Part shown: positions 1,700 to 55,900 of the stretch, in pieces
How positions within the stretch are numbered: position 1 is the first letter of the stretch
Layout: every line of letters begins with the position of its first letter
DNA from: Bryoerythrophyllum caledonicum
Lineage: Eukaryota > Streptophyta > Bryopsida > Pottiales > Pottiaceae
NCBI GenBank assembly: GCA_963971425.1
Contig: OZ020523.1
Coordinates: 18,100,867-18,164,866 of the forward strand
Direction: 5' to 3'
Length of the DNA: 64,000 nucleotides
Made by a program: the position numbers and the translations under genes
The notes under the pieces: generated by a model
Told to the model about the DNA's origin: nothing
The model's input: the letters and a program-made list of their open reading frames with translations, nothing else
The model's database searches: none

Positions 1700-4600
1700 T
1701 GACTGCTATAATGTGTAAACATTACTTTTGTTGAATTTGCAATATTGAACATACTCATGTTGATGTCCTCATTTGTGTGCTCAAATATTGGTACGCACCT
1801 TACAATATAGTAACTATGACTGACCTTTTATCATCATGAACCTAAACCTCGAGTTCCCTCATATTCAAATTGAAACAGAGTCAGAAACTTACCAAGTTTA
1901 CAAAAATCTCCGCGATGTACAAATTTCCTCTTCCAATCTACATAGTATACACAAAGTTGACAGAAATTAGTGAATGAAGTAAAACTTCACATGGTTTGGA
2001 GGTTTTGAGATTTTGATTGCAAGAGAGCTCACCGTAAAAAGTGGAAAGAGAAGAGACGTCTAGGGTTTGCAAAGAAACTTTATATCCATGTTGGAACCTT
2101 GTGCCTCAAGTTTACTAAGTCCAATTGTAGAAGCATCTATATTTAGTTTCGACCATTGTATGCATTATGTACTACGTAGAATATCTTTAATCAACTGCCA
2201 ACCCTTGCATAATGTATGTTTTTTTGTGATTACGCCTGTTTGTATACTACAATCCTTCAAATCTATCTTTGATATATTGTGAAACTATATTAAATACACA
2301 TTTATCTAGTGTTAACGAGGGGCCACCAAAAATTAGTTGAAAATGCCAAAAAATAGCTTCCAATATTAACAACCATGATTGTATGTAATATTGTTGCAGA
2401 AGCTCAATTTTTTTCCTTTCGAAAACATTTATTTTCTTTGTTTTTTTTTTTTTTTTTGCAATTTTGCCACTTTTGTTCGCAATGGCCGCCGTTGTACCCA
2501 AGTGCACTTCTAAATGGCCAAGTGCATAATTGCTTAATTACGTGTTAATCTTAGGATTATAAGTAAAAGAGAACATGATTTGTAACCTTTTCTATATGAA
2601 GGAAAAAAGTAATCTTGAAAGAATCTTGATAACCATAATTAGAGATTAAAATTAAACTATAGTTTAGTAGATCTTCTATTTAAATTTGTGAAATATAACA
2701 AGATCAAAATTTGGATATATAAAATATATTAAGCATGAATGACATTGACACGATATGGTATATAACTTTGTATTGTTCATCCCTATTTCATATGAATCAC
2801 AATGAAAATGGTGCTTCTAGATAACAAAAAGTAATTGATTTAATTCCACTTATTATAAGAAATTACAATATTCATAGAATTTATAAAATTAATAGTACAA
2901 ATTTAGTCCATTCTCAATATTTTGATAATTTTGAATCAAAGAAAATATTGGAAAACATGGAACTTCATATTTATAGTAGTATTTATATTATATTTAGGAT
3001 ATACAATTGCAAAAATAGACTCTATTGAAGCTATTGTTTCATATATTAAATGGCTTTACTTATTAAAAAGAAATATTTCTCCTCTGCAATACAAGCCAAG
3101 TTTCCTACTAGAACAACTTCAAATGAAATTTAACTTAAAAAGATATGAAAGCAATACATTTCTCAATATATTACAAAATGACTTTAATGAACACATTCAC
3201 TATAAATATCATTCGTGGTATTTCTCTTCAAACATATTAGATCTATATTTCTACCAAAAACAAAAAAAAATTGACTTTAAAAAAAATCTCAAATAATGTC
3301 ACTCAAATATTAACATCATATAGACTTGCCATTTGAACTTCAAAAAGTCCCATTTTGTGGACAATAGTCTTTTTAAGGATTTAAATAACCATATTTCTTC
3401 CAATATTTTTCTTTGTGGCTTCTCCAACATGCAATGACAAATTGCATTTTATTAGTTCTTATTTTCATATAAGAGGCAACTAAGTACCTATATTTTTCAA
3501 CAAATTCAAGTAATTGAAAAATTATTTCTTAAAACAATTTATAAAATTCACTTACTGTAATCTAACCAAGTTCTTGATCTCATTGTATGATTACTTGGCA
3601 AAAGAAAAGAACATGATATCCATCCACTAATTTCCATATATAAGAGCAAAAATACCTCAGGCTATGTATTAGTATCTCAATATACATCTTTAAATATGAT
3701 GAAAATTATGATTTGACTTTCAACCATTTTTACAACAAGTTGTGAACAATTTCATGATTTGGTACCCATATTACAATTTCACAAGATTGATATCATGTGT
3801 TGTATAGCTTTATTTCACTGAGAACAATATATCATGTATAAGATTCTCCTAATCCCTCCCATCAACTAACTCTACCAAAATTTTGTTTGACCTCTCTAAG
3901 ACTTATTCCACCTTTAATAAGATTTATGAAACTAGTTTGGAAGATTCATGAAGCTACTAGAGGTAAAGGTCTACTATTATGAAATTGAGGTGTGCCACAT
4001 GTAAAATTGGTCTAGAAAGACTGTGAACTAATTTAGAAGGTTCATGAAGTTGGAAGAACACTTTAGTAACATTTATTAAATGATTCATGGCCTTCATAAA
4101 ATTATGTTTGCACTTTTGTGAAGTCATTTACCAAAGGAGTAAAGTTGGTCTTAACCCCTTAAGACCAAAGAAGTCCAAGACGGGCCTTGCAACACTGCTC
4201 CATAGATCAAATGGTCAAATAATAGATTTTCTCTCCGCATCTTATACACAATTCAAAGGTTTGTGATATGCAGGGCTACATGTTTTACAAGAATAATGGA
4301 GGTAGATAGTCATTATCAAAATCAATATGAAAATAGTGATCCCCCTCAAAGACATCCAAATATAATTATAGTCATTGTTACACCTCCTACGTATCTTAAG
4401 AAGTATAATCTTTGGCAATGTGGAGAATTAAAAGGGACCAAATTTGTAATATGATCTTCAAGGATATTGGTGTGACACTCTTCTTTGATGATCACTAGAA
4501 ATGTAGAGAGAAGTGTTACCCTCACAATTAACCTACAAGACAAAGTAGACATGAAAGAGAATCTCCAAGGAAATAAGTTTTCAATTTGAAAAAAAATTAT

Positions 4601-5020
4601 GGCTATTACAAATTGCATGTGGTATTGGAGAAACCAACTTCTTTTCCAAACATACAATTGAAAGCTAGTAATATTAGTCATCAACAAGACACTATAAAGA
4701 TGATATAAATTTTATTTTGACCCCTAAAAAATTGTTTTCTCCATGAGGGACTTAATTAACTTAGACAAATTCCCACAATGTCAATTTTAATCAAGAATTT
4801 TCATAAAGATTCATAGAGACGTGGCATAGAAGTAGCAATGTGGAAATATAATCTATTTTCACTCTAGACCCTTAGAAATACATTTATGCTATTCTAATTG
4901 TAATTCAATAGGTTTTGAGCAACTCCAATTTTTTGTCACAAGCTTTAGCATTGAGGTTTATTGTACAGATAAACATTCTTTGAGGTCGAAAAATCGTGTC
5001 TCTAGTGTACAACTTCAAAT
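1700..5020. other. AT-rich intergenic DNA
   Basis: No gene supported. The region is strongly AT-rich, with an oligo-T run near 2440-2458. The longest frame (2922-3296, 124 codons) is Lys/Asn/Ile/Phe/Tyr-rich as expected by chance at this composition, and has no motif or splice context. Short words such as CTTAACCCCTTAAG near 4150 recall the TTAA-bounded transposon ends found further on. Confidence 0.5.
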
Positions 5021-5692
5021 TTAACCCTTATATTTCTTTGACAATTTCACACCAAAAACACTTGAAAACTGCTCGTTTTAGTGCAGTGAGTAAGGACAAA
5101 ACAAAAAATCTTTTAACTTCTAGTTTTAACCGTAGGATCTCAATGAGGACTTGTAATGTAACTTTTGTTTAAAAAATTCATAAAATTTGACCACACGAAT
5201 TGTAATATTATATTGTTTGAAGTAGAGAAAATGGTCCATTTTCTTCTCTGCGTTTAATGGATCAGCAAATTTTGGCTTCGCTTGGTGTCAAATTTTTGCA
5301 CTACACAAGGTCTAAATTCATTTCCATCATGTTAAGCATGATATTAGCTCCTTGTACTCCAATTTTAAGAGGTAGAGAATGGGTGCAACATATTCAAAAC
5401 AATTGTGCATGGAGTACAGGTTCAAAAATTGTCAATTTGCGTCATATTTTTTGTGAACTTAGTATGTCTTAGAATGAGAATCCAAATAGTCAATAAGAAG
5501 GTTAACACCACATAATGCTGCAAAAAAAATAAAAAGTAAAAAAATATGATGATCTCGAAGTTTTATGTGAAAATGAAGAACTTTTTTTGGTACCTTGCCC
5601 GACAATGTCCTATAATGTGTGAATGTTTGACTTGGATTTATATGCCTTTTTTCTCTAAAGACAAGAGATTTTTCCTTGACAATATGAAACAT
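5021..5692 (+). mobile_element. TTAA-bounded DNA transposon, copy A (3' truncated)
   Basis: It begins TTAACCCTTATATTTCTTTG and is collinear over ~670 bp with the intact copy at 33371-34312 and, inverted, with 6238-7188. Shared landmarks include the CCGTAGGATCTCAAT block, the TTAAGCATGAT block and the TTTTTGGTACCTTGCCCGACAA block. Similarity stops after GACAATATGAA near 5690, where unrelated sequence takes over, so the right terminus is missing. No transposase is encoded, so the copy is non-autonomous. Confidence 0.75.
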
Positions 5693-6237
5693 CACTACAA
5701 TTCGCAATGTAATGTACCCACAATGTAAATGATGTAGTGATTAGTTGAAATGAAATGTACCCACTCGTGGCATTTGCTAGGCGTGGTCTCATATGCAGTT
5801 CTTAAAGGGGTAATGTAAGTCAAACAATTTAACACACTTGCCATGCGACAAACAACTTCTTCTATACATAAAAAGGAGAGGTTTTTATGTTTTTGACTAC
5901 GAGATGAGGTCAGAACCTTGTTTTTGACTCTTTAGACAGTCTATAACAAAGAGAGTTCAAAAAGATAAAAAATGTCGGATTTAGGAAAAAATCCCTCTAA
6001 GGACGACGGGTGACCAAGACTAGGAGAATCCACAAGTGTAAAGATCATGTAGAACAACATCTACACAATGGGTACATTTCATCGTGGTTGGTCACTACAA
6101 ATTTGTTACAATTGGTCCCACGAGCAATTGGCCTGGCTTTTAGACCTTGTGGAATTACTTTGTGAAATCCAACTTACATATCAAATTCCAAGAACATTGA
6201 GGTTGTTACCTTACATTGTGGTCACTTTTGTAAATTA
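5693..6237. other. Spacer between inverted transposon copies
   Basis: No gene seen. It contains its own imperfect inverted repeats: GAAATGTACCCA at 5752-5763 matches TGGGTACATTTC at 6069-6080, and ATCACTACA near 5690 matches TGTAGTGAT near 5732. It may be a further small insertion that replaced the right end of copy A. Confidence 0.45.
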
Positions 6238-7188
6238 TTAACCCTTAAGGTACCAAGTGTCAAAAATGGGCTTTTTGAAAGTTCGGTTAAGTTCCTATGG
6301 TGTCAATTTCCAACATTCTTCTTTGAAATTTTTACTATAGAAAGACATTACCAAGAGCTTAGTGGGAAAACAATTTTTTCCTAAATTGGACATTTGATGA
6401 AAAAGTTATAGGGTTTTGAACTTTAAACGGGGAGGGCGGGCACCTCGGGCACCTCCAAAAACTTTTGATAGGACACTCTATTGAATGTGAGATTTTCAAT
6501 ACTCGCAAGTAATATTATTTCCCTTCATGTTGTCAAAAAAAAGTTCTTGTCTTGAGTGAAAAATAGCATACCAACCCAAGTCAAACATTTTCACACATTG
6601 TCACTCATTGTTGGGCAAGGTACCAAAAAACTTCTTCTTTTCCACATAAAACCTAGAGATCTTTATATTTTTCACTTTTTATTTTTTCCACATCAATATG
6701 TAATGTAAACCTTCTTATTAACCATTCGGATTATCAATCAAAAACATATTAAGTTCAAAAAAATTAAAGTGTGAATTAACAAATTTCAAGCCCCCACTCC
6801 TTGCACACTTATTTTGAATATGCTACACCCCGTCTCTACCTCTAAAAATTGGTGTGTAAGAAGCTAACATCATGCTTAACAAGATGGTAATAGATTTAGA
6901 CCTTGGGTAGTGAAAATTTTTGACACCAGCTGAAGTCAAAGTCTCCTGATCCACTAAACGAAGGGAAGAAAATGAACCATTTGCTTGACTTCAAACACTA
7001 TAATCATTCAATCCCTGCGGTCAAAGTTTATGAAATTTTGTACATGTATTACTTAATAAGCCTTTATTGAGATCCTACGGTCAGAACTAAAAACAAAAGT
7101 TTTTGTTACCCTCTTTAATCATTGCACTAGAATCCAATAATTTTGAAGTGTTTTTGGTGTAAAACTATCACGGTACCTTAGGGGTTAA
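6238..7188 (-). mobile_element. TTAA-bounded DNA transposon, copy B (complete)
   Basis: An exact TTAA lies at 6238-6241 and another at 7185-7188. The 943 bp between them start CCCTTAAGGTACC and end GGTACCTTAGGGG, a 13-bp terminal inverted repeat with one mismatch. The internal sequence is the reverse complement of the copies at 5021 and 33371. There is no coding capacity. TTAA targets with CCC...GGG ends are the hallmark of piggyBac-type elements; the superfamily assignment is inference. Confidence 0.8.
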
Positions 7189-7239
7189 TTTACAATGAAG
7201 AATGTTCAAGATTTTTAGAAAATTCAAGAGATTTGTCTA

Positions 7240-7340
7240 GGTGATTTGCATGTAATGCCTAGATGAAACCCGTGTAATACCAAGGTGATATCCACCTAAC
7301 GCCTAGATGATACTTGTGTAATACCTAGATGATTCTTGAG
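7240..7340. repeat. Degenerate ~30-bp tandem repeats
   Basis: Repeated words of the form TAATGCCTAGATGA...TAATACCAAGGTGA...TAACGCCTAGATGA...TAATACCTAGATGA, about four units. No coding potential. Confidence 0.55.
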
Positions 7341-7351
7341 CGAAGCTAGTA

Positions 7352-7418
7352 TGTGAGCGGGGAGCAAGGAGCAGGGAGCAGGGAGCAGGGAGCAGGGAGC
7401 AGGGAGCAGAGAGCAGGA
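7352..7418. repeat. (AGCAGGG)n microsatellite
   Basis: Eight to nine copies of the 7-bp unit AGCAGGG, starting GAGCGGGGAGCAAGGAGCAG. A related array on the opposite strand occurs at about 21885-21915. Confidence 0.85.
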
Positions 7419-7899
7419 ACTTGCCAAAATCTCTCTTGAGATTTTAAAAATTCGGTTGTCAAAATATAAAAATCATGTAACTTATATTTCTTTAAAAATT
7501 AGGAAAAAGATGCCTATGACCGTGTACCACAGGGGGTCCTAAACCGCGAATAAAATATGGATTTGCACATTTAGAGACGTTGAATCTGGTTTGAAAAAAT
7601 TCTAAATTTCAAAAGTTTGAGGGGATTGGAATTTATTATTCACTACCTTATTTTTTTACTCAATTGGTGAAAAGATAAATTATAAACTTGAAAAAATAAG
7701 CTACGGAAGATTTCAAAAACTTGGTAGTGGCCCTTTTTGTCGCACTCCATATTCAAATATAACTCATCGAACTTAATACACAATTTCAAACCCTACAATA
7801 TAAAGGAAACTACAAATTACTTTCTACATCATGGTGATACGTGGCATAAAACCCCAGTTTCTAGAACACGCTTCACTTCATTGAAGCTAAAGCTCGGGG

Positions 7900-10800
7900 C
7901 ATGCATAAACACATCTACTGCGGAATTCAAACTACAGATAATAGTAAAGATGTAGTAAAGATGCTTGCATTGGGTCCATTATCCTCGTTTCCCTAAGGAC
8001 TTTGTCAACATCTCTTTGAAGTATAGACATGAACAATCTGGAAATGAACCTATAGCGATCATGAACTGTTGAGAATTGGGAACTATACCAGATTCTAGAG
8101 TAACGATACATCCAAATCCTCGATGAGGTACCATGGTCACTTGATGAATGCGACACCTGAGGGTGACAGCTGATGCACAATTGTTGAGATGTTTTGTTGT
8201 AGGAGCCCTCATATTCCTGTGAATATTCTTCCCAGATCTGATCTTAGGATATTCATCAGGGAAATCCATAGTGGGATGAAAATTCATATCAAGGGTAGGA
8301 CCTTGACTACCAAAAAGTCCTCTTGGAGACATCGCCACACATTGAGGTAGTTGAAAACCTGCATTCTCGAGTGCCAAAATTTCTTTCTTTGAAAGATTAG
8401 TTCCAATTTTAACTGGCCAGACACTTGGAACATCAGGTTTCGAGAGGACCCACTTGCGTTTGGTGCCCTTCACACAACGCTCGATGTCGTCATTGCAGAA
8501 GAAGAATTGCATGCGCTCCACCTTGTTCTTCTTATAATTGTCCATCATTCCAACATAAGTAGGAGCAACAGTGCTTTTATTGTCTTGTACAATTCTTGCA
8601 ATACATTTCTTCTTGGTAACTGCCTGTAATGCAAAACATGCTTTTGCAGAAGTCTTTGGCAATCTTGCAATGTGCCATTGCGACTCATTGCATACAGTCT
8701 CCTAAACGGCAGTAATATGGCTTGAAAGAGATCTCAATGGAGATTGAATCACCTCTGTTGCCATGGGAACGGTTTCTTCTTCAGGTACGGTAGAAAGAAA
8801 CTCCTCGTGAACATTACTCATACTAGGTACACCCGTACGAGCTCTGGATGTTCTGGTATTGATTCTTGGATAGGAATAGTTTACCTTGTCAGGCCGATGG
8901 AACTCATGCTCGTCACCTAAAGGCATGTCGGGCTTGCATTTCTGACTACCAAATACTTCTTCTACTTCCATGTGGGGATGACGAGTGCAAAATTCATCAG
9001 CTCCAGGCATTTTTGCTATAGCCTCGTTGAGAACCTTGGGGTTTCTAGAGCGAGAGACAGAGCGTTGGGCAACCCTTAATAGCAACTCCTCCTTTCCAAG
9101 CCCATTGCCTCCACGTTCCCCTTTAAGAAACTGATAATACTTCACCACTTGCATAAATGCCCTAACAAAGTCATCCACAGTGGCCACATACAAGTCATTA
9201 CCTCGATTTCCGGACTGCTGGAGCAATTTGTTGTGGGCTGTCTCTGCAAGATTGCATGAGGGCATCTTGGCAAGCTCAGCCTGATTAAGATTCTACACAC
9301 ATGAACAAAGGTGTTATTCAACCAATAACATGAAAATTGATGAGTACGAATATTTGGGCATAGAAATGAATGGTTTCATAAAACATGTTTATGGCTTTCG
9401 CTTACCAATTGCATAAAGCCACCCCACTAGCGGTATCGAAAATGCCAAAATGCTAGCCACAGCTCCAAACGACTCAAGCTCTCCCCCGTTGTGGCAACTG
9501 AAGAATGCCACCATCCTACGATGGCGTGGTAGCGAGTTTCGGCCTCATGAAATGTTGTTGCATTCTTATATTGCTTGCAAAGCTGTCGATGTTGATCTTG
9601 GAGGTCAGCCCTGATGTCGGCCTTCGTATGCTTCTCAAGAGATTGGGTCCAATGGAAGAGGCATGTTCGTTCTTGATTGGCCATTGGGATGGATGCATCG
9701 CCACTTCCATAGATGATCCGCACTGCATTCCAATTTGCTTGTGTGCTATCAGCCATGAATCCTTTGAACTTAGGATCCGGTATGTCATGCCTAGCTGCTA
9801 CTGCATTTAGATTCTTCCAAAAAATGCATTGAGTAGCGGCATCCTCAGACTGCATATCACAAACCGCCAGAGTCATAACCCTACAAAAAGTTGAGTCGTA
9901 CACATGGCAAGCCATCGTGGTCCACTGCTTTACACGCTTGACATGGTCAAATATCAACCATGCGTCTTCGAGGTCGCCGGTGGGCTGCATTTGTCTTATT
10001 AAGTCAACTCCACTTCCTGGCCCCACTTCAGACATCTTGAAGACAAATACCATATCTGAATCGGATCCTTGGCCCGGAAATTTATTTTCCTGAATGAAAG
10101 CCCAATTGCTGCAACCCCTCAATTTTGTGATACTATCCATGATGCCATACCGCCGTAGGTACTTGAAACTTGTGACCTGATTTCGAATACTAGGTGAACT
10201 GATAGGACTTGCACATATCCAAAACAGGTACTAACTCCTCCAGGTTCAAGGTCTTCGAGGGAACATCTTCAGGCCGTAGAAGAAGCTCTCTAAGAATATC
10301 TTTACTTGCCTCCAAAACAATTGCAGAGGTAGTAGCATTTGGGGTCCTTTCAATATGCTCCCCAAGAAGGGCATTGGTCCTCTCGGTCAACTCCCTATAG
10401 TCACCAACTTTGACAGGATGTCTATGAACCTCTAAATGCACACATACACGAGTCATAATTGAATTGCCAAACACATAGTATATTCTAGAATCACAGCTAG
10501 CAAGGCAAGAAGGGGGTGTCTTACAAATCTTACAAACCAGTGATGAACCGTTCGGTGGAAGACAACCAAGCCCAAACTTTGCCGATGTCGAGCCCTCCCA
10601 CTCCGTACTGTTGATGGAAGATGTTCGATGGACACGAGTCAAGTAGGCACAGTTGCGATTATTGCATTGGAGATGGCCCACGCAACTGGATGTGCGAAAT
10701 GTCAGTCCCGTGTCATTCTTGATATGCGAGGTAATTGTCTTTGTCCAAGCGTGGCCGTCGTATCGCTTGTCCATTCCTGTCATCAACTTCGCTTGTGAGA

Positions 10801-11506
10801 GCCTTCCAGAGGCTTGGATGGGAGGTAATTCAAAAACGACATCCTCATTGAAAACAGGGGGTAGACTATGTACTCTTTGAATACAAATAGTACTATAGTC
10901 AAGCTTTTTGAGCATATTTCTAGATCCTTTTCCATCACGTAATTGCTTTAGTGAGTCAATAATACTAACAGAGTCACTAAAGCTCGTAGGAGAAGATCCA
11001 CTTCTACCCGAGATGCGATCAATCGATGAATCTGGCCTTGAGTAATCAACGGTGGTACGCGACGAAGGAATCTTACGAGTAGGAGAGTCAGCATCGGAGT
11101 CATCACTTATGATAGTCACAAAGTTAGAATCAAGCTCAACCTTCACTTCAGAGAGTATGGGAGCATTTGAACAATGAGGAGTACCATCCTCAACCGATGG
11201 GTTCTCAGCAATGAAACTTACGCCATAGACTCTAAATCTATCTGGCTTAAGCAACCACTGCTTCTCATTATCAATATATGTATGATGCTGATCTAGCGTA
11301 TGAGTAATACGTCCAGAGGAACCATCAAACATTTCTTCGTCAAGATACAAAGAGTCTGCTTTCAAATGAAATCTCAGGCTCAATTGTGACGCAGAAATAT
11401 GAGTAAATCCATCTTCAAAGAGAGGGATTGTGAAAGGCAAACTATCATGAGATGCGCGTATGACAACCATACTGTAGTGACACTCATCTATCTCCTTTGC
11501 GGCCAT
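7900..11506 (-). pseudogene. Mutator-like (MULE) transposase with GCM/WRKY-like zinc cluster and SWIM finger, decayed
   Basis: Reading down the minus strand from ATG at 11504-11506, the N-terminal ~430 residues hold a Cys/His cluster (CVGHLQCNNRNCAYL, then CKICKTPPSC, then CVHLEVHRHPV) like the GCM/WRKY-type fingers of plant MULE proteins. After a frame change near 10190 follows the MULE transposase core (9427-10180: WLIFDHVKRVKQW, FMADSTQANWNAV and the conserved CLFHWTQSLEKH). An intron with GT-AG ends spans about 9290-9402. The C-terminal part (8702-9289, 7900-8700) ends in a SWIM finger, CSC followed ~18 residues later by CKH. In-frame stops at 9426-9428 (TAG), 8702-8704 (TAG) and 7979-7981 (TAA, inside the SWIM finger), together with the frame change, show a dead copy. 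Terminal inverted repeats and target duplication were not found by eye. Confidence 0.8.
9290..9402 (-). other. Intron in MULE pseudogene
   Basis: On the minus strand the donor GTAAGCG follows ...TTTATGCAATTG and the acceptor TGTGTAG precedes AATCTTAATCAGGC. Joining the two gives a continuous MULE frame leading into the NLAETAHNK motif, apart from the TAG stop just upstream. Confidence 0.6.
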
Positions 11507-11559
11507 TCCGCCAGAGGTACTATCACACAATTGCAATCTGGAAAGGACTCTAGAAGTCA

Positions 11560-13440
11560 ATGTTAATGAATATATTCAGTGCCGAAACCATTATATCAAA
11601 TTTGATGTCTACGGTGAAGGAGTTGAGATTTGAATCAAGTGCATCGGAAGAAAGTCACGGATCCCAACATATCGCACTGGCTGAGGTAGGTTTTGTCGAT
11701 TGCCTTGTACTTTTGGAATTATTTCATTGTTTAATGAGAATTATACTGTACAAATCTAATGATTTGCAGTGGTGCACCATTTTGCTAAATGGACTTCAAT
11801 TTAGAGAATTGAAGAAGTAACAACACTATAATCATTGATAAGAAGCTGAATATGTTCATTCCATTTTGCAACTAGACTGAGAGGGTGGCCTTACTGAATA
11901 TGGAGGCTGGCAATAAATAAACTAGATAATACTAGTTAATACAATAACCTTAACCCACATTTAGTGATTGAATTATGTCCCATAATTTGTCCATTGTCCT
12001 TATACATCAACTGCTTCATTGACCAAGAATATTAAGTAAATTAAACTAAATTGCGCATAACACCATAGTTCCATGGTTGAGTATAATAATTTTGATTCCA
12101 TAAATAATTTATGAATCATCAAAATAACTTATTATTAGCTAATCACTAGTATAGACTTCTCAAAATTTGGACGGGAAGTCGAATATTCTGTTCAGTAGGA
12201 TCTAAAAGAATACTATTCGTTATTACTACGGGTTAATGAGGATGCATTTCAGTTGTAAGTTTGCCATGGACCAATCTTCAAAATGACAGGTAACAAAATT
12301 GGACCGTACTTGAAGGCCTACGAATTCAGTAACGTTCGTACTTGCTGAATATAGTACGAATACTGAACTGAATGGTCGTCTTCCTTTCGAGCCGGAAACC
12401 CTTGGCCAGGCTAAATGCTCTTTCCCTTACTCAACTCGAGCGACGAAACCCCAAATTTCGCTTACCGCCTTATTCCTATCTAATCTCGAGCGTGGAAATC
12501 CCAGAGGTCGCAAGCATCTTCATCAATTCTTCTCTCTTTGGATCAGGTGGTCTTATGGTCGTTCAGCTTCCATGTAGGGTTTGATCATTGCTTTGCTGAC
12601 AAAATGAACTGTGATCTATGTGATTCTCAACAAAATGAGGCTCATGCACAAATGGATTGATGGGGATGCATGAGTGTGGTCACAGTAAACGCGGCAACTG
12701 GGCAGCAACGCAAATTGACTACCGCTAGGACTTTGCAATCAGGAGTGGCGGTTTCCGCAAGGTACATCATCTCACAAACATTGAACAGCATGTTGTATTC
12801 AAGCTTCACAATTCTGATGCTAGGGTTTGATCGGGCTAAGTTCATTTGATAACTGAATATCGCTTTAGGGCACGTGCTATCACTTGGGAGCCGCCCGGCG
12901 TGAATGGATCGTCGATTAGGTTGAATTCTTGACTGCGTCGGTGCCGACGTTGTTCGATCCTGGAGTCTCGTGAGTGTGGATTCGTGAGTGTCGCCGACTG
13001 AATGTGCGCAGTAGGAGTTCGGATTCGTGCATCGTGAAGTCTCCTGAATCTGGATTTGTGAGTGTCGCCGACTTCACGAAAACTGGTTGTTTTTATGTGG
13101 TCGCCGACTGGTTCTTTTCTATGTAGATAATTGCGTGGTATATCATGCGTATTCCATTCGTGACCAGGAGAGTGAGTGTTTTTGGGGGTGACAGTGGGGA
13201 CGGTTGAGTGTTGCGGGAACATGATCGAGGGCACCACGTGGTGGGACATGAGTCCTCGGGTTGACTGTGTTGTTCGGGTTGGACTGGGTTACGATCACAG
13301 CGGGTGGTGACGTGGTCGGGGACCATATGACAGTGGTGAGCATCCAACGCAACGATCGATGTCATGAAATGAGTGTGTTGTTGCTGCTACGAAAGGAATG
13401 AAAGGAGTGAAGGAATGGGGGGACGTACTTTGGAAAGGAA
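11560..13440. other. Intergenic DNA, no gene recognised
   Basis: The first 800 bp are AT-rich and contain nothing recognisable. From about 12880 the composition becomes GC-richer, with repeated TCGCCGACT words (about 12989, 13067, 13102) and the first CGTCGGTGCCGACG palindrome at 12936-12949. Overlapping open frames of 69-135 codons on the minus strand at 12842-13365 share the same bases and have no domain signature, so they are not called. Confidence 0.5.
12936..12949. repeat. CGTCGG palindrome, copy 1
   Basis: CGTCGGTGCCGACG, a 14-bp inverted repeat with one mismatched pair at the centre. It is the first of seven in the next 3.8 kb. Confidence 0.8.
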
Positions 13441-29685: not shown

Positions 29686-29689
29686 TTGA

Positions 29690-30182
29690 TGTGGTTATCA
29701 GTCTTTCTTTACACGACAGTTGTCATGGGACGTGGCGTCAAGGGCCTCTCCGTATCGTAGTATTTTCGCGTAGATTAGTTTGTTACTAGTCTATAGATTT
29801 AGGTACGTATGGCGGTGCACCGCATTCATCCGTGGATGATTTTCATCGAAGTAGGGTTGTGTGTGTACGTATAGCGCCGCACACGTCTTTGACTTGAAGT
29901 CTTTGGCAAGCCAAGCTTTGTGAGTGAGTTTGAGAGTGTTTAGCGATTACCTTTGCTTGTAAGTGATTGTTTATCTTTAGAAAAAACTTTGTATTCTTTT
30001 GTACTGTTTGTACTCCTTGATTCTCTTTGTGGAGTGCGAGACGCTTGAGTACCCTTGTGATTTATTAGTTAGTCCTTAGGGGTGTACTACGTATACTTGT
30101 TTTAGTGTATGTTTTTCATTTATTTGACGTTGGTTAGAACTCCCGATCTGTTGTGGTTATCGATCTTTCTTTACACGACAAG
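29690..30182 (+). mobile_element. LTR-retrotransposon remnant related to the 46-51 kb element
   Basis: TGTGGTTATCAGTCTTTCTT at 29690 and TGTGGTTATCGATCTTTCTT at 30152 are two copies of the sequence that also begins the presumed 3' LTR at 51362. Before the second copy, about 30080-30151 matches 51290-51361 (GTATACTTGTTTTA, GATCTG), the 3' internal end of the gypsy element. So this is an LTR, the terminal internal bases, and the start of a second LTR, with the coding part lost. LTR length cannot be fixed exactly. Confidence 0.65.
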
Positions 30183-46210: not shown

Positions 46211-46497
46211 CTCAAAGAACTATAATGAGTAAAAGTTGCAGCCAGAAACCCAATATTTTATCTTGGGACACAAACTTTGTGCTACGACAGCGATGACTTC
46301 TACGGCGGATGCTATGTTTGAGTATAGTGCTTTGGCATCCGTTTTTCCATGTGATTCTTTGCTTTTGGAAGAGACATATGCTTTTATGTTGAGGGTAGCG
46401 CCATTACACGAACACAGATCAATAGAGATTCTTGCACGATATAGAGGATCTTCTTCCTCCTAGGGGAACTTAGTTGGAGCTCTGAAGCCACAGTCGA

Positions 46498-47565
46498 GAG
46501 ATTGTAGAGGCCACTAATGCTCCCTACCTCGGAGTAGACTCTTCCACTCCGTTGTTGGCTCGCACTATTTAGTGGCGACCACCTAATGAGGGTATTACCT
46601 TTGTGGAGCTATTTGTCGGTATCAGTATGGGGCTCGCGGCTGTGTTGGAGGCCGGGCCGAAGATACGACAATATACCCACGTAGATAGTGACTTTGCAGC
46701 TAATCGTGCCGCTCACCATCACATTCAGCGTCTTCTGGCGTTGTATCCATAGCAGTTACCTTCTGCGATTCGAGGGTGTTTTGGCAAGTTGCTACGTGAT
46801 GTGATGATTATTAGTGAGGATGATCTTTGCCGGATAGGTCACGTGGACTTGGTGATTGCCGGATGGCCTTGCCAAGGCCATTCACGAGCGGGTGGTGAAC
46901 GTGGCTTGGATGATCCATGGTCGGGTCTCTTTGCAGATTTGCTCAGGCTCATCTAGTAGTGGATTACCCACCAATGGAAGCCACCGGGGTACATTTTTGA
47001 TAATGTACCCCTATTAGGGGATACACGGACGAAAAAGTGTGAGGATGGGGCATACATCCATCACCTTCTTAGTCCCCCCACGTTTTTTGATGCCACGGCA
47101 TTCGGCTCTTACACCCATCGGCCACGTTGGATTTCGACCAACACGGCATTATCCACGACGTTGACTTCTGCACTTGCTCAAGTGCAACGGCCTGTGCGCC
47201 GTGAGGTCAATGACATCTTGGAAAACTATCGTGTTTCCACGGAGGTTACGAAGGATGATGAGCCACCATTGGCTGTGGTGAACTGCGTTGATTTCACTCG
47301 AGGGGCATTTCCCACCTTGATGTGTTATTCGGGCTTTCTTGCCTTAAGGACACGTGGTCTGGGCATGGTTTGGGACTCCTCTTCCCAAACTTACGAGGAG
47401 CCTTCTGCCAATGAAAGAGAGCGGACAATGGACATTTTTATAGGCACCACCGCCGCAGCGGATCACTCTGAGGGCCAACGTCATTGTTTGTTGGGTCAAG
47501 CCATTGACCTCAACATCCTCGTTTGGGTTTGTGGCCTTTGTTTCGCTGTTCAGCGCTGTTTGAGT
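46498..47565 (+). pseudogene. Cytosine-5 DNA methyltransferase domain in the retrotransposon
   Basis: In one frame (codons starting at 46573) the sequence reads FVELFVGISMGLAAVLEAG, which is motif I, then VDSD (motif II). The catalytic motif IV is GWPCQGHSRAGG with the Pro-Cys-Gln nucleophile loop intact. Motif VI reads DNV where the family has ENV. The C-terminal part holds FPTLMCYSGF (motif IX region), YEEPSANERERTM, and LLGQAIDLNILVW (motif X region); this last arrangement resembles DNMT3/DRM-like enzymes. The frame is broken by TAG at 46570-46572, 46750-46752, 46954-46956 and 46957-46959, but no frame change occurs between motif I and X. In a working copy it would methylate cytosine in DNA; DNMTs inside retrotransposons have been described in dinoflagellates and charophyte algae. 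Confidence 0.88.
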
Positions 47566-48040
47566 GACCATTCACGTGTGTTGGCGGTAGACTCTGATGG
47601 TCAAGGGGTAGCGGTGCCACATTTCACTGAGATCGAGGAAGCAGAGTTGTTTTTTCGTTTGAAGAGACATGCAGTAGAGGAACTTCGTGCTCAGCATGTC
47701 TTTGCAGCTTTGGTCGAGGACTTTGGTCGAGAGGATGCCTGTGATATCTTTGCCCAATTTTATCATCACGACACGGGGATTTCTGTGGATTGCGTAAGTG
47801 AGGAGTCTGGGGGTCACAATGCCTTCTTTGCTACTAAGTAGCAATCACCGGTCGTGCCTGTATGCGGTGAGTCTTCTACAATAAAGACTACAGAGTTTGA
47901 TGATTGGCCTTTGGTTTTGGAGCCATATCTTACCGGTGCCGAAGCACGAAAGGTACGAGCGTTTATTCGTTCGTATCGTAGTTATTTTGTCTTTAGTCTC
48001 AATGATTTGGAGGGCTTCAAATGCAAATCAATTCACATCT
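47566..48040 (+). pseudogene. Linker between methyltransferase and RT, retrotransposon
   Basis: Same frame as the methyltransferase, with a TAG at 47839-47841. The first half (VDSDGQGVAVPHFTEIEEAELFF and on) has no domain I recognise; it is where a protease might be expected, but no DTG/DSG motif in suitable context is visible. The second half (FDDWPLVLEPYLTGAEARKV, IRSYRSYFVFS) is like the segment just before the gypsy RT domain. Confidence 0.55.
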
Positions 48041-49340
48041 AGTTGGAAGACGACCACCCAATCTTTCGACAACCGTATAGTCTCAGTTTATCTAAGAAAG
48101 TTGGATTCAGATTCTAGTCAGGAGTTGTTGGCCGCCAACTTTATTAAGCTTTCTAACGGCGAGTACGCTTGTGCCACGGTTATATCTTCAAATAATGATA
48201 TCTTTGGCAACTAGACGGAAAAGCGGATGTGTGGGGACTATAGGCCAGTCAATTGCAAGACCAAGTCAAACCGGTATCCCATGCCCACGCCAGAGGAGTT
48301 GTTTGATGCGGTGGGCCACACTAGAGTATTTAGTACTTTAGATTTGCGGTCTGGTTACCACTAGTTACCGTTGATGGTGGAATACCGGGTGAAGACTGCA
48401 TTCTGGGGAGTTGATCAGGATAGGAGAGATCAATTCTATCATTGAAAGTTTCTCCCATTTGGCCTTAAGAATGCACCCATTGAGTTTCAGAGGGTGGTGG
48501 ATCAAGTGTTGACCAGTTTATTGTGTGCTCAATGCTACATTGATGATGTTATCATTTTTAGTACCAGCCCACACAAGCATGTGAGGCATCTTCAAGCGGT
48601 TTTTGAGAGGTTACGGCAATGTGGATTGCGCTTGCACCATGGAAAGTGCAAATCCTTTGACGACTGGTTGCCATACTTGAGACATATGATTGTTCTAGGG
48701 GTCTTGGCGTGCAACAGGCCAAGGTGGATGTGTTGCAGAAGATTCTTGCCCCAATCGACGTCTCACGGATTCGAGTTTTTTTTGGCTTGGCAAATTACTA
48801 TCGCCGGTTTGTCAAGAACTTTAGCTTGATTGCTAATCCATTAACTATTCTCATGGGAAATGATCAACCATGGACTAGGGGGCGGGAGTAGCAAGAGGCG
48901 TTTGCTACTTTGAAGCTGAACCTCAGTTCAGCGCCAATGGTGCGGCGTCCAAATGCTACACGATCCTTTCAGTTGCACACAAACTGGAGTGCTATGGGTT
49001 TGGGGGTTGTATTGACTCAGAAGGATGATGAGGGACGGGAGTACGTTGTGGCGTTTGCTTCTAGGAGCAACAACAACGCGGAGTCCAACTATTCGTCCTA
49101 TCAGAGGTGGCCTTGGCCGCGGTTTGGGCCATAGCCCATTTTAGGCCCTATTTGTATGAGCAACGTTTTACGTTGGTGAGTGACCATCAGCCATTGAAGT
49201 GGCTCATGGAGTCTGACAAGCTTACTGGCAAGCCCAACAGGTGGGCTTTATTGCTTCAGGAGTATGACTTTGAGGTTGTACATCAGGCCGGCATCACGAA
49301 CTTGGATGCGGATGGTTTATCTCGCAATCCAAGTCGTTCG
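48040..49340 (+). pseudogene. Reverse transcriptase and RNase H, Ty3/gypsy type, decayed
   Basis: The domain begins LEDDHPIFRQPYSLS. RT landmarks are MCGDYRPVN, STLDLRSGYH, KFLPFGLKNAP and the catalytic CYIDDVIIFS (near 48535, the YxDD box). FFGLANYYRRFVKNFS follows, then RNase H with QLHTNWSAMGLGVVL, YVVAFASRSNNNAESNYS and DHQPLKWL. It is broken by stops at 48040-48042, 48212-48214, 48362-48364, 48443-48445 and 48888-48890, and by frame changes near 48080, 48700 and 49115. Confidence 0.9.
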
Positions 49341-50416
49341 GAGGAGGATTGGACTCGTGCCAAGTGGCATGGAGGCTGTGACAGGAAGTCAGTCCCGGGG
49401 TGGCATGCAGCATCTTACCTCACGTTGATGTCCGGCTCCGCATCGACATTGCTTGATTTGGCAGCGGATGAGGAATCGGATAAGGCCCAAGCTGTTAGCG
49501 ATGTGTGGGAAGATGGTCCAGTCTTGCACAAGCTTCAACACGAGACACTTCTACCAGCTCTTTCGGCTATGGAACGTGATAAAGTTGGGCACCGAATAGC
49601 AAGGTTCCGTTGGGAGAACGGCCTTCTATTTTGAATGTGGCTAAATGGAACTAGGCGCATAGTTCCAAGGCTAGATCAGAGGGCTTTGTTGGTACGGCAA
49701 GTACATGAAGACCTAGGACATTTTTATGTGCAACGGACTCATTCGATGCTGCGCAGCCAATATTGGTGGGCCAACATGTATCAGCAGGTCGCCACGTATG
49801 TTTCTCGGTGTGAAGTATGTGATCGTGTTAGATCCAGCTGCAACGCCTTATCACCTCTGTCGCAACCTTTGCCCATTATGGGGCTAGGATATTGGTGGTC
49901 TTTGGACTTTGTAGCTCCACTTGTCGTGACTCCACGCGGAGCCAAATATGTCTTAGTGATGGTGGAGCATTTCAGCAAGTGGAGTGAGCTTGTGGCTCTT
50001 CCGCAGAACTCTTCAGAGTCGGCGGCCATGGCATTCCTCGACCGAGTATTGGATCGCTTTGGAGCTCCTGTTGAGGTTTTGACAGACCAGGGACATGAGT
50101 TCCTTGGGGTTTTCGAAGCTTTGTGTACCAATGCTTTGATTGACCATCGTACCACTTCTCGGAATCACCCGAAAGCGGATGGTTTGGCAGAGCGTGTGGT
50201 TCAGACCGTGAAGCGTGGCCTATGGAAGTATGGATTTCTTCTAGGTAGCCACCATGATTGGGATCTGATGATACCATGGATCGCCATGGGGTACCGGTTT
50301 AGTTGGCAGACTTCGCTGACTGCTTTCAGTCTGTATCAGTTGTTGTACGGGCAAAAGCCAATTTTACCAAGTTTCGTTTGGGAAAAGTTCGCTCCGGTTG
50401 TGGATTTGGACATCTA
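49341..50416 (+). pseudogene. Integrase, Ty3/gypsy type
   Basis: The zinc-binding HHCC start is VHEDLGH then CEVCDR (near 49700-49830). The catalytic DDE triad residues are seen as SLDFVAPL, LTDQGHEF and the Glu in DGLAERVVQTVKRG. The frame is open from 49635 to 50416; a TGA at 49632-49634 separates it from the RNase H frame. A family-typical tail (AMENLSIAQHRDTLRYARI) follows in another frame at 50453-50530. Confidence 0.9.
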
Positions 50417-50613
50417 GAGGTGTGGGCCTAGTGTCTACGGGATTGAGCGAAGTTGTTCAAGCGGGCTATGTCCATGGCCATGGAAAACTTATCCATCGCT
50501 CAACATCGTGACACCTTACGGTACGCTCGTATATGTAGCGGTGCCTACCGACCTCAGCTACGACGTTTCTCCACGGGGATTACGTTTATCTACAGCGTGA
50601 GGCATCCACGACG

Positions 50614-50961
50614 TTGGACGTCAAGGTTGGGGGCACCATTCTTCGTGTGAAGGATGTGGTGCTCAGTGGCATCTTGTTGCTGGAAGGCAAGGATGGCCGG
50701 GAGTGTCGGGAGCACTTTATAAATTGTGTTCGATGTCATTTACCCATTGATGGCTTTGTTCATCCGGAGTTGGCGGTTGTGCCCGACGGCCTTCCGTGTT
50801 TTGTGTGTGGTGAGAAGAAGGGCGCAGCTACCATGTTTTGTGACTATTGCCAGCGTGGTTGGTATATGGCTTACTTGAGGCCGCCTCTTTCTACTCGACC
50901 GTCCAGGGATCGGATTTGCCCTCGTTATTGGAGGTTATCTCGGCCACGTTTCACCTTATGA
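50614..50961 (+). pseudogene. Degenerate PHD finger at the retrotransposon C-terminus
   Basis: TILRVKDVVLSGILLLEGKDG (an SH3-like integrase tail) leads into CFVCGEKKGAATMFCDYCQRGWYMAYL and, 15 residues on, ICPRYW. Spacing matches the C4HC3 plan of a PHD finger (CxxC, CxxC, GWH-C-L, WICPxC), but the His and two Cys positions are Tyr here, so metal binding would fail. PHD fingers read histone tails; in a retrotransposon this position is where chromoviruses carry a chromodomain. Confidence 0.7.
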
Positions 50962-51361
50962 AACGACTTGAATTTCTTGTGGACTTGCCACTGTGTGGTG
51001 CGTTGCCATCTAGTTGGAGTTTCTGGTTTCGATTTAGGCATAGGCAACGTGGAGATTGACCAAGGGATTGGCAACAAAGTTGCTTAAGGCGATTCAAGAT
51101 GTGGCTCACATTGCATCCGACCTACCCTCTCTTTGTTACTTCTCCATGTGCTATTTGATTCGGCGACGGGTGACATCTTCGACTGGATGCGTAGAGTTGT
51201 TGCAGCGACATCACCGTGGCATTTAGTCTTGTTAGTGTTGTATGGTCCTAGCTAGATAGAGGGTCTCTTTATCCGCTAGGGGCACTTGAGGGTGTATTAC
51301 GTATACTTGTTTTAATATATGTTTTTTGTTTATTTAATCTTGTTTAGGACTATGGATCTGT

Positions 51362-51391
51362 TGTGGTTATCAATCTTTCTTTACACGACAG
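51362..51391 (+). other. Start of 3' LTR (truncated)
   Basis: TGTGGTTATCAATCTTTCTT is the same LTR start found at 29690 and 30152. Similarity to the 29690 copy ends after ACACGACAG, where unrelated sequence begins. Confidence 0.6.
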
Positions 51392-51730
51392 CACGAACGG
51401 ATGCACGAACGGAAATCAATTCTATTAATAATATAGACTAGTGGAACCCGCGCCTTCCATTTTTATCCCTCATCTTGGCAGTTCTATTTTTATCCCTCAT
51501 GTACTGATCTTTAACCCTTAAGGAACCAAGGCAATTTTGTAGAATCTCAACTCTATTGATTAATGCCTGCCAAGATGAATTTTTATGAATGTAACCTTAG
51601 GATCTTCTTCTAAAATTATATGAGGTGAATGATGTGATAAATATATAGTGTTGTAAAGATATAGCTTAGTTGTCTTAGGAGATTAGTTGTCTTTGTAATT
51701 CAAAAATCAACTACTCTAAATATTATATTT
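51392..51730. other. Intergenic, nothing coding
   Basis: Contains TTTAACCCTTAAGGAACCAA near 51513, resembling the end of the TTAA-bounded transposon family (TTAACCCCTAAGGTACC), without a matching second end nearby. No gene seen. Confidence 0.4.
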
Positions 51731-51915: not shown

Positions 51916-51918
51916 TAC

Positions 51919-52062
51919 TTAGGGGCAGTTTACACTACGGACCAAGAACTCGTTCCATGCACCTCTAAAATATGTGATTGGCCAATCGAGTTGATGGAGC
52001 CAATCACAGATTTTAGAGGTGCATGGAACGAGTTCTTGGTCCGTAGTGTAAACCGCCCCTAA
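51919..52062. mobile_element. Near-perfect 144-bp foldback element
   Basis: Two 64-base arms (51919-51982 and 51999-52062) are inverted copies with only two mismatches, separated by 16 bases. It begins TTAGGGGCAGTTTACACTAC. It would fold into one long hairpin if transcribed. Arms this similar suggest recent insertion or selection. No flanking duplication is evident. Confidence 0.9.
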
Positions 52063-52941
52063 TTTAAAATACAGATTTTCCCTTTGTCCTTCGAGGGTTT
52101 TACAAGTCTCTCTATGCACAACATAAGCAATAACATATATCATCAATATCAGGTGATACCCACTCCTTAACTGGGATATATTTGCAAGGAGGAGGACGTG
52201 GATGTTGCTTTTACTTTTACTTTTACGTTTACTATTAAGGTAAGCCTCCCCATAACCAACAAAAACCCATAGCAAACGGCTACAAAACTGGGGTATATCC
52301 AACCCTCTTCCATCCCATTACAACGAGGTGAGCTCCAAACGGAGGTTTGCTATTAGTCAAGACCCTTACTTTTGGTCGTTGGTTATGGGGGGTACCTACT
52401 ACTAGCCACCCACTAAACATGGTTGCACAGTTTGAAAATTCATAACTAATTCAATTTTCATGGAAAAAATATGAAATCACTTGGGTTGGAATCGTAACTC
52501 TATTGGCTATCACTGGAAAATAAAAGTATAATTATCTCCTCTCTCCATATATGCCCACTCCGTAACTTGTCGGTTTTAGGGGGGCTGAACTTAGTATCTG
52601 ATAACTGGGAATCCATCCCCGATACCCGGATCAATCCGATACCCGAGAACACCCTCCAGACATCCGCAGCAGGTGAACACGCTTCGTGCCGAAGCATTGC
52701 AAACCCGACTCGCGCTTTGCGGTGCGCTCATCTGCCAACTCACAGATCCATTGTTCGCACACAATAAACACCTCGTCCTTCCCCATCGCCATCGCCATCG
52801 CCATGCACGCACTGGCGCAGCCCTCGCCTCTGTAGCCACCACCGTCGTCGCCGCCCGCCACTCGTCCTCGCTTCTCTAGCACTCCTTCATTCCTCGCGCA
52901 AATTTCACTCGTCGGGCTTTGGCGATCGTTAGGGTTTTGCC
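52063..52941. other. Upstream region of 2-OGDH
   Basis: Probable promoter and 5' UTR. It contains (CCATCG)n at about 52784-52803 and CTTTTACTTTTACTTTTACG near 52210. Antisense frames here and across exon 1 reflect high GC and are not called. Confidence 0.5.
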
Positions 52942-55900
52942 ATGGTGTGGCAGCGCGTGACGTCCGTCGCGGCCCGGGCCGCGGCGCGATCCGCCCTGCG
53001 GCAAGCGCGATCTCGGCCCTCGCTGGTTGGGAGCGCGGCGCGAGCCGGATTGTACACGCGCAGCAGCGGTGGTGGTGTGGTGGAGGTGCCTGATTTGAGC
53101 TCGGCGCTGTCGGGATGGGCGCGCGCACTGCACTCGTCGCGGGAGAAGCTGCAGCAGGCGGCGGCGCCGATGAGCGTGCCGCTGTCGAAGCTCACGGACA
53201 ACTTTTTGGACGGGACCTCGAGTGTGTACTTGGAGGAGCTGCAGCGCGCGTGGGAGGTGGATCCGAAGAGCGTGGACGCGTCGTGGGATACGTTCTTTCG
53301 CAACTTCACGGGGCAGGCGGCAACGAACCTCGGGCTGTCCGGGCAGACCATCCAGGAGAGCATGCGGCTGCTGCTGCTGGTGCGCGCGTACCAGGTGAAC
53401 GGGCACATGAAGGCCAAGCTGGATCCGCTCGCGTTGGACGACCGCAAGATCCCGCAAGAGCTCGACCCTGCGCTTTACGGATTCAATGAGGCCGATCTTG
53501 ATCGCGAGTTCTTCCTTGGCGTGTGGCGCATGGCCGGGTTTCTGTCGGAGAATCGGCCGGTGCAGACGTTGCGCGCAATTCTGTCGAGGTGTGTTGAAAT
53601 TTTTGGTCCAATTAGGGTTGTTGATCCCTTCTTAGTTCTAATTGCAGCCGTGACTGCTTCTCTCAGTCTGTTATGTCTAATTGCAGTTGTGATTGCTTCT
53701 CTCAATCTCTAAGGTCTAATTGCAGTCGTAATTGCAACATACGTGAGAAATCTTGAGTTGAATCTAATATGCAGGGGTTTTGGTTAGTGAGAGATGGGCT
53801 CTGACCTCGTGAGCGGGGATTCGTTGTCAGGCTGGAACAGGCTTATTGTGGCACCATTGGATACGAATACATGCACATTCCAGACCGGGAGAAGTGTAAC
53901 TGGCTGCGTGATCGGATTGAGACTCAGCTTCCTGGGAAGTATGGACCGAGTAGGAAGGCTGTCATTCTCGATCGGCTCATGTGGGCAACCGATTTCGAGA
54001 ACTTCTTGTCGCAGAAATGGACCGCAGCCAAGAGGTTTGGTTTGGAAGGGTGCGAGACCTTGATTCCAGGTACGTTGATTCCATATTATTGAATGCCTTC
54101 AACTTGAAACGTCAGTCGGGAACCGTATGTGTAAGCACGTATTCTACTCTATAGAATACAAAAATGTATTAAAGTTTCACCTTTGGATTGAAGATTCTCC
54201 GACCTCCATCTTTCATTTGGAGGTCATTTCAATATATCTACCTTATCATGTTCAAATGCGATACCATACGTGTAGAATACTGTGACCAACAGTGGCACCT
54301 TGTGACGTTTAAGGGTTAATGTGAAGATGTTGCTGAGTGGCTTTGTCTTTGACAGGTATGAAGGAGCTCATTGACAGAGCGGCCGATCAGGGTGTAGAGA
54401 GTATAGTGATTGGTATGCCGCATAGAGGACGTCTGAATGTCCTAGCGAATGTGGTTCGGAAACCTCTGAGGCAAATTTTCAGTGAGTTTAGTGGAGGCAT
54501 CAAGCCGTCGGAGGATGCGGGTTACACTGGCAGTGGGGATGTGAAGTATCATCTAGGTACATCATATGACCGGCCTACGCGTACCGGGAAGAGAGTACAT
54601 CTTTCTCTGGTAGCTAACCCCAGCCATTTGGAGGCTGTGGACCCTGTTGTTATTGGGAAGACTCGTGCCAAGCAATACTATTCTAATGACAAGGATCGGA
54701 GCAAGAACATGGCTATCTTGCTTCATGGAGATGGTAGTTTTGCGGGTCAAGGTGTGGTTTATGAAACCCTCCATTTGAGCGATCTTCCCAACTATACAGT
54801 TGGAGGCACCATTCACATTGTGGTCAACAACCAGGTGCTGTACAGTACCGATTTTACCTCTTTGGAGATAGGGGCAACTAAATTACAACGAACCTTTATC
54901 TCTCTGGGTTTCTTGTATGTTCATAGTAAGGTGGTGGGGTTTATGATGGTGAATTGAGGCGATGTGCTGAATTTTGATTCGTGAACCGCAGGTTGCGTTC
55001 ACAACCGATCCTAAATCAAGCAGGTCTTCGCCTTACTGTACTGACGTGGCCAAGGCTCTCAATGCACCCATTTTCCATGTCAATGGTGACGATGTGGAGG
55101 CAGTTGTGCATTGTTGCGAGCTTGCAGCTGAATGGCGTAATAAGTTCAAGGCCGATGTCGTCGTTGACATTGTGTGTTACCGTAGATTTGGACACAATGA
55201 GATAGACGAGCCCTCCTTTACGCAGCCCAACATGTACAAGGTACCATCCTCTTCAAGCATGCTCCCGCGGCTTCCTCGCCAGATAATATGCAAATTTTAT
55301 CTTAATCACTTGGCTTTTGCTTTTAGAATTTATCTGCAAAGACCGTTCCTTTAGGAGCTTTATTTTGGCTATGTTAAGATTACTTTTCGGTTGTGGTTGA
55401 AAGCGTGTTTTGGATTTTTTTCTGATGACCGATGTTTTGATGTGTACTTAATGTATTCGGCCTGTGATTATTACAGGTTATCAGGGCTCATCCACCAGCA
55501 CTCGACATCTACATGACCAGAATGATTGAGGAGAAACAACTCTCACAAGAGGAGGTCTCGAGTCTTCAGGACAACGTCTTCAAAATACTCAATGAAGAGT
55601 TTAACAGCAGCAAGGATTATGTCCCAAGCGCTCGGGACTGGTTGGCTGCCTACTGGCAAGGTTTCAAGGGTCCAGAGCAGCTCTCTAGGATTCGAAACAC
55701 AGGGTATGATTTGATCATTCTTCAGCTGGTGATGATTTTGTGATGCTCTTTAAAGAACAGCTGTTCACCTAGACATCAGTGTTTGTAAATACCTAATGCT
55801 TTTAAAAATATTTGATTGCATCTATTTTTCAAGGATTCTTATGGTTTTATTTGGGGTTTTTCCAGTGTGAAGCCAGAAATTTTGAAGAATGTTGGGCAGT

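Follow-up and report, generated by a model that had tools for sequence, protein, structure and literature searches.

Transposons are the usual victims of DNA methylation, a view challenged by elements that bear the enzyme writing the mark. The locus analysed here, on the plus strand of a 64,000-nt stretch of DNA (the window), raises the question whether a Ty3/gypsy retrotransposon carries its own cytosine-5 DNA methyltransferase (DNMT) and, if so, how that enzyme is made. A first-pass annotation had proposed such an element, of the kind described by de Mendoza et al. in 2018, beside land-plant-type genes, and the analysis supports it. The locus is quite probably a defunct copy of a Ty3/gypsy long terminal repeat (LTR) retrotransposon, present many times in a moss genome, that encodes Gag, protease (PR) and DNMT followed, past a leaky UAG, by Pol and a PHD finger, with the DNMT packaged and the two cDNA ends joined by a splint formed in its split repeats.

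The methyltransferase within its retrotransposon family

In the window copy, the motifs VELFVGISMG, GWPCQGHSRAGG and LLGQAIDLN are present on the plus strand, and the DNA_methylase, RVT_1, RNase H, H2C2 and rve profiles all return matches (E values in Table 1). As the annotation had described, the DNMT frame leads into the reverse transcriptase (RT), running beyond a TAG at 47839 to 48039, the start of the RT region. The window's own genome comprises 437 Mb in 894 contigs, and match counts in it are lower bounds: among 2424 first-look candidates for a DNMT query, at least 101 matches were scored, and many of these lie on contigs of chromosome size. With an RT-RNase H query, DNMT sequence was found upstream of all 86 best-scoring matches (of 5856 candidates), right at the junction in 84. 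A same-strand DNMT match is listed upstream of 67 of these, at exactly 3 nt in 65 and at 362 and 1440 nt in the others; in 135 nt spanning the expected junction of the remaining 19, the DNMT 3′ end is present in every case (L070 with an internal change). Family members without the DNMT, which according to the annotation would point to a host gene fragment, do not occur among these 86 matches, more diverged members lying outside that set. A second subfamily in the same genome was rejected as a candidate, since the query used (P0006) gave no match above 74% identity among 92 scored of 2395 candidates.

Ten copies were retrieved with long flanks, one of which (c10, L039/L040) was excluded from repeat and open reading frame (ORF) counts, leaving nine. 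ORF1, in the order Gag-PR-DNMT, is one unbroken frame in eight of the nine (1353 aa in c1, c3, c4, c5, c7, c8 and c9; 1351 aa in c6) and is broken once in c2. ORF2, in the same frame and in the order RT-RNase H-integrase-PHD finger, is uninterrupted (1047 aa) in three copies, c2, c3 and c5, and disrupted in the remaining six. The lack of gag and protease remarked on in the annotation thus holds for the truncated window copy, not for the family, in which Gag has two CCHC-like knuckles, identified by eye, and the retropepsin has a DSGA site. Pfam matches in copy c3 include the DNMT in ORF1 (2.8e-11) and RT (2.7e-31), RNase H (3.1e-38), H2C2 (2.2e-18), rve and the PHD finger (1.7e-11) in ORF2. 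The Pol order RT-RNase H-integrase with an rve core is that of Ty3/gypsy elements. At E up to 1, the ORF2 pieces gave no match to a tyrosine recombinase (a DIRS trait), the rve integrase being present instead, or to a chromodomain (a chromovirus trait), the PHD finger occupying that place. CHD4, PHF12, KDM5, PHF21A and UHRF1 are among the proteins of solved structure to which the PHD finger is related. The DNMT is DNMT3-type and non-rearranged, with a catalytic fold nearest DNMT3A/B (structure model with a 45-row alignment, pLDDT 82; an 11-sequence model, pLDDT 30, was unusable).

Nine of the ten long-flank copies hold the DNMT between terminal repeats, and these depart from ordinary LTRs. Arm A (~361 nt) stands at the 5′ end of the nine copies and is repeated near the 3′ end, where arm B flanks the second A on both sides (the matched length is 65 nt in c6 and 105-108 nt in the other eight). 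Every one of the nine follows the order A1-coding-B1-GC-A2-B2; none has an identical LTR at both ends, the 5′ end being arm A alone and the 3′ end B-GC-A-B. All nine have the termini TGTCAC...ACGACA, and exact 4-bp target duplications flank seven of them. The B1-GC-A2 junction reads ACAGCTGT, two bases of which are missing from the integrated ends. The annotation was right in seeing a gypsy element with a DNMT; it overlooked these split repeats, the PHD finger and the conserved UAG described below.

A charophyte-grade source, which the annotation had offered as one reading, is disfavoured. Plastid psaB (contig C894) scores best against PDB entries 8htu, 6l35 and 7ksq, which we take to be Physcomitrium (Physcomitrium patens) photosystem I entries, and from this gene we infer a moss host. 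The assembly holds two different plastid psaA/psaB sets, on contigs C894 and C821, and psaB of C821 has the same best PDB entries. The same element, with a DNMT 92% identical, is encoded by L067, a contig of 9285 nt assigned to a cyanobacterial metagenome-assembled genome (MAG); we take L067 to be moss DNA within that MAG. In positions 1-8488 of L067, B1-GC-A is followed by 5′-leader-like sequence, not by B2, as expected of a circle or a collapsed repeat. A family DNMT is also named in NCBI as a protein of an Obscuribacterales (bacterial) MAG (P0135), probably plant DNA in a MAG. In viral contigs, a single-sequence query found no relative and a profile query one 31% match (L068).

A probable leaky stop and what it would mean

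ORF1 terminates at a UAG with CAA UCA directly after it, and ORF2 continues in frame without overlap. This stop separates DNMT from RT in all 59 copies sampled and is UAG in 58 and UAA in one; CARYYA follows in all 59, and the full UAG-CAR-YYA is found in 58. By sample, TAG CAATCA is present in all 20 of L001-L020; TAG in 19 and TAA in one of L047-L066, with CAATCA in all 20; and TAG in all 19 of L069-L087, with CAATCA in 18 and CAACCA in one. L067 has the same stop context and an uninterrupted ORF2 of 1047 aa. Among 63 DNMT-only database relatives with alignments reaching the C-terminal part, judged from proteins alone, 17 end in ATK-like and 12 in STD-like residues at the equivalent position, and 34 end elsewhere, some perhaps cut at contig ends. 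According to a review (PMC3542737), UAG-CAR-YYA is the consensus for type I readthrough in tobamoviruses, and the element's UAG is, judging by this context, probably a leaky stop.

Genomic RNA would then yield mostly Gag-PR-DNMT and, through the leaky UAG in its tobamovirus type I context, a minor Gag-PR-DNMT-Pol. Made at Gag dose, the methyltransferase would be taken into the particle, and the DNA it could methylate there is the element's own cDNA or host DNA close by. The B1-GC-A2 junction may be the splint or template joining the cDNA ends (B2 to A1) in a circle, from which integrase would trim GC to give TG...CA ends, and the PHD finger may steer integrase to a chromatin state. The fullest version, put forward tentatively and less likely than not, is that a DNMT3-type enzyme in the Gag polyprotein, made in larger amounts than Pol because the UAG leaks in the tobamovirus manner, would be present many times per particle and able to methylate its own cDNA before PHD-guided, splint-and-circle, split-repeat DDE integration. 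Because the DNMT lies in the Gag ORF, ahead of a probable leaky stop, its dose and packaging can be predicted in concrete, testable terms. Host methyltransferase genes can be removed in mosses.

Several observations weigh against the main reading. The first 40 copies are a weak test of the stop context because they are best-scoring and mutually alike, L067 being the sole diverged DNA. The RNA downstream of the stop has a fold with z -2.7, yet four sequences contain no compensatory change or covariation. Fused proteins with the DNMT before RT, 12 in number and including Klebsormidium P0066, indicate that the wider group needs no stop. The protease falls just short of its Pfam cut-off (Asp_protease_2 E 1.2e-4, 23.1 bits against 24.3, in c3), and the eye-identified knuckles have a zf-CCHC_6 E of 0.94. 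An exact target duplication is missing in two of the nine copies (c3, mismatched at one of four bases; c9, unmatched), and c10, one of the ten, is without paired repeats within the stretch read.

A different role for the enzyme is possible, if on the unlikely side: it may alter host silencing or hit rival DNA rather than the element's own cDNA, or be structural in the Gag polyprotein. Its location in the Gag ORF would suit such a role, as would the defence function proposed for transposon methylases in the part of PMC6338049 available to us. The catalytic PC and ENV motifs are retained in DNMT relatives and the element's DNMT is under purifying selection (a pol value of 0.50 for c8 was dropped, this copy being frameshifted), which opposes a purely structural role and does not discriminate between targets. 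We judge it unlikely that every copy has decayed and that the mechanism is valid for the past of an extinct family alone; although the window copy is a pseudogene and many copies contain stops, c3 and c5 are free of them in both ORFs, and between A1 and A2 the eight copies compared (c6 excluded) have just 2-12 differences over 361-362 positions, one or two of them recurring at the arm end.

Rather improbable is a UAG that truly ends ORF1, with ORF2 translated separately by reinitiation at the fifth codon past the stop, by internal entry or after splicing. That codon is GTG, and ATG in two of the 39 copies printed (L020 and L050), which makes an alternative start possible and also counts against a leaky stop. 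Set against separate translation are the frame, preserved without overlap, the match of the hexanucleotide to the published type I consensus, and, in c3, the position of the first Met of ORF2 at residue 117 (no AUG in the first 116 codons), just ahead of the RVT_1 match at 128. A chance juxtaposition of a host DNMT gene fragment and a gypsy copy, for which the look of the one decayed window copy is the sole support, is ruled out by the family-wide arrangement, namely DNMT upstream of every scored RT match, an ORF shared with Gag-PR in eight of nine long copies, and 41 database proteins with both DNMT and Pol matches.

The window copy and its surroundings

The element had been placed at 46498-50416; its extent is corrected to 46290-51392, reaching beyond integrase to a PHD finger remnant and a repeat arm (Table 1). 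The left end lies inside the protease-DNMT linker and the right end at the junction of B1-GC with A2. Besides the family TAG at 47839, in-frame TAGs are found at 46570, just 5′ of the DNMT, and at 46750, 46954 and 46957 within it, and Pol contains five frame changes; the window copy is therefore a pseudogene. Compared with sites common to c3, c5 and L067, it has 447 changes, of which C>T and G>A account for 277, with rates of 0.156 in CG, 0.184 in CHG and 0.077 in CHH contexts. This pattern fits later decay under host CG and CHG methylation and is no demonstration of self-methylation. An apparent B repeat in the left flank is just a common 8-mer, not above shuffled sequence.

Table 1 Features of the DNMT-gypsy family in the window.
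Feature	Position in window	Strand	Evidence
Truncated, decayed DNMT-gypsy copy	46290..51392	+	Corresponds to positions 4339-9462 of the 9925-nt sister copy c3; blastn 85.4% over 5126 columns
Protease-DNMT linker remnant of ORF1, with one TAG and a frame change	46290..46602	+	tblastn ORF1 residues 833-886 and 888 onward
DNMT3-type C5-methyltransferase domain, pseudogene, three in-frame TAG	46603..47838	+	PF00145 4.3e-9 at 46753-46953; ORF1 888-1353 vs 46444-47838 at 79%; start placed at VELF motif
UAG CAA UCA, ORF1/ORF2 stop, fitting type I readthrough motif UAG-CAR-YYA	47839..47847	+	Same motif in 58/59 sampled copies
ORF2 N-terminal part, starting in DNMT frame	47842..48111	+	tblastn ORF2 1-92, 75%
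Reverse transcriptase remnant	48119..48724	+	RVT_1 1.7e-17 on 48446-48826; tblastn ORF2 96-297
RNase H remnant, two frames	48892..49265	+	PF17919 1.3e-19; PF17917 3.2e-15
Integrase, H2C2 zinc finger and rve core	49635..50411	+	PF17921 7.3e-17; PF00665 8.5e-14
PHD finger remnant	50797..50922	+	E 0.009, under cut-off (copy c3: 1.7e-11)
Repeat arm B1 and GC dinucleotide; copy stops at B1/A2 junction	51285..51392	+	blastn arm B vs 51285-51390, 90.6%
Second family remnant, solo-LTR-like: B1 tail, GC, A2, B2	29687..30180	+	blastn c3 positions 9429-9925, 84.3%

To the right of the element copy, a long inverted repeat at 51918-52061 resembles, by eye, a foldback or miniature inverted-repeat transposable element (MITE)-type element. 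The host gene at 52933-54957 presumably encodes 2-oxoglutarate dehydrogenase E1, as judged by its motifs. Large ORFs on the minus strand at 7979-11575 may be part of another transposon.

Relatives and comparison with known systems

A Pol query gave 990 relatives at E 0.001 among 7994 scored, and the 120 matches listed include Klebsormidium nitens, Closterium, the liverworts Calypogeia fissa and Riccia sorocarpa, Haematococcus and Tetrabaena. Among 112 RT-bearing proteins classified by BLAST (c3 and L067 included), the DNMT precedes RT in one ORF in 12, lies between RNase H and integrase in 28, and is undetected within the predicted protein in 72, as would be expected wherever the element is split. 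The RT tree has 106 rows; a branch with 99% support sets off a side of 32 rows that contains the DNMT-between type and five DNMT-undetected rows. Four split rows (c3 and L067, proven in DNA; P0013 and P0014, assigned by start point alone) form one 99% clade, and the 12 DNMT-before-RT rows are scattered. In a DNMT tree of 79 rows, the moss sequences belong to a group of 20 rows (95%), separate from a group of 40 rows (96%) in which the other two arrangements are found, with mixed support within groups and several long branches; both trees are quick ones. The leaky-stop arrangement thus looks derived within a broad green-lineage family. Elements whose DNMT sits between RNase H and integrase (P0058, P0062-P0064, P0069, P0071 and others) make up a second large group, whose RT clade also includes Haematococcus and Tetrabaena proteins.

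According to a 2019 paper (PMC6338049), land plants such as tracheophytes have no transposons encoding a methylase; the at least 101 scored DNMT places in this moss genome stand against that statement. No report of a DNMT-gypsy element in mosses, or of one with a leaky stop, turned up in a literature search that reached few subscription papers, and the accessible part of PMC9033089 is silent on both. The closest known system is KnitGypsy-Dnmt3 of the alga Klebsormidium nitens (de Mendoza et al. 2018, PMC5890265). As far as its main text could be consulted, that element shares with the moss element the Gypsy domain composition, a DNMT3-type non-rearranged DNMT, a DIRS-like repeat arrangement, as found in the moss copies, and purifying selection on the DNMT (Ka/Ks <0.2 in KnitGypsy-Dnmt3). 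Its DNMT is described inside the Pol ORF, whereas the moss DNMT closes ORF1 (Gag-PR-DNMT) ahead of the conserved UAG; the terms readthrough, Gag and PHD are absent from that same text. The same source describes retrotransposon DNMTs as performing de novo CG methylation, and SymbioDIRS-Dnmt3 and SymbioLINE-Dnmt as carrying DNMTs in other retroelement classes, acquired independently according to its authors. A 2025 survey (PMC12344493, seen in part) likewise places DNMT3 within retrotransposons, namely LTR and DIRS elements of streptophytes and dinoflagellates; it speaks of LTR Copia, and in the part seen neither a moss element nor a stop comes up.

For the stop, tobacco mosaic virus offers the same UAG with CAR-YYA, there in the replicase gene and backed by evidence for type I readthrough, as far as PMC3542737 could be consulted, where the moss element has the sequence context alone. 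In-frame stops between ORFs also occur in murine leukemia virus (MuLV) gag-pol, Tca2 and soybean SIRE1, with no DNMT mentioned in the available text of PMC2194720; there, a local readthrough signal for Tca2 was sought in yeast and none found, and, going by a title cited, the SIRE1 stop precedes an envelope-like protein, unlike that of the moss element. New relative to these systems are the moss host, in place of the algal one, a DNMT that belongs to the Gag ORF and precedes a probable leaky stop, the PHD finger 3′ of integrase, and the relatives in liverworts and Closterium.

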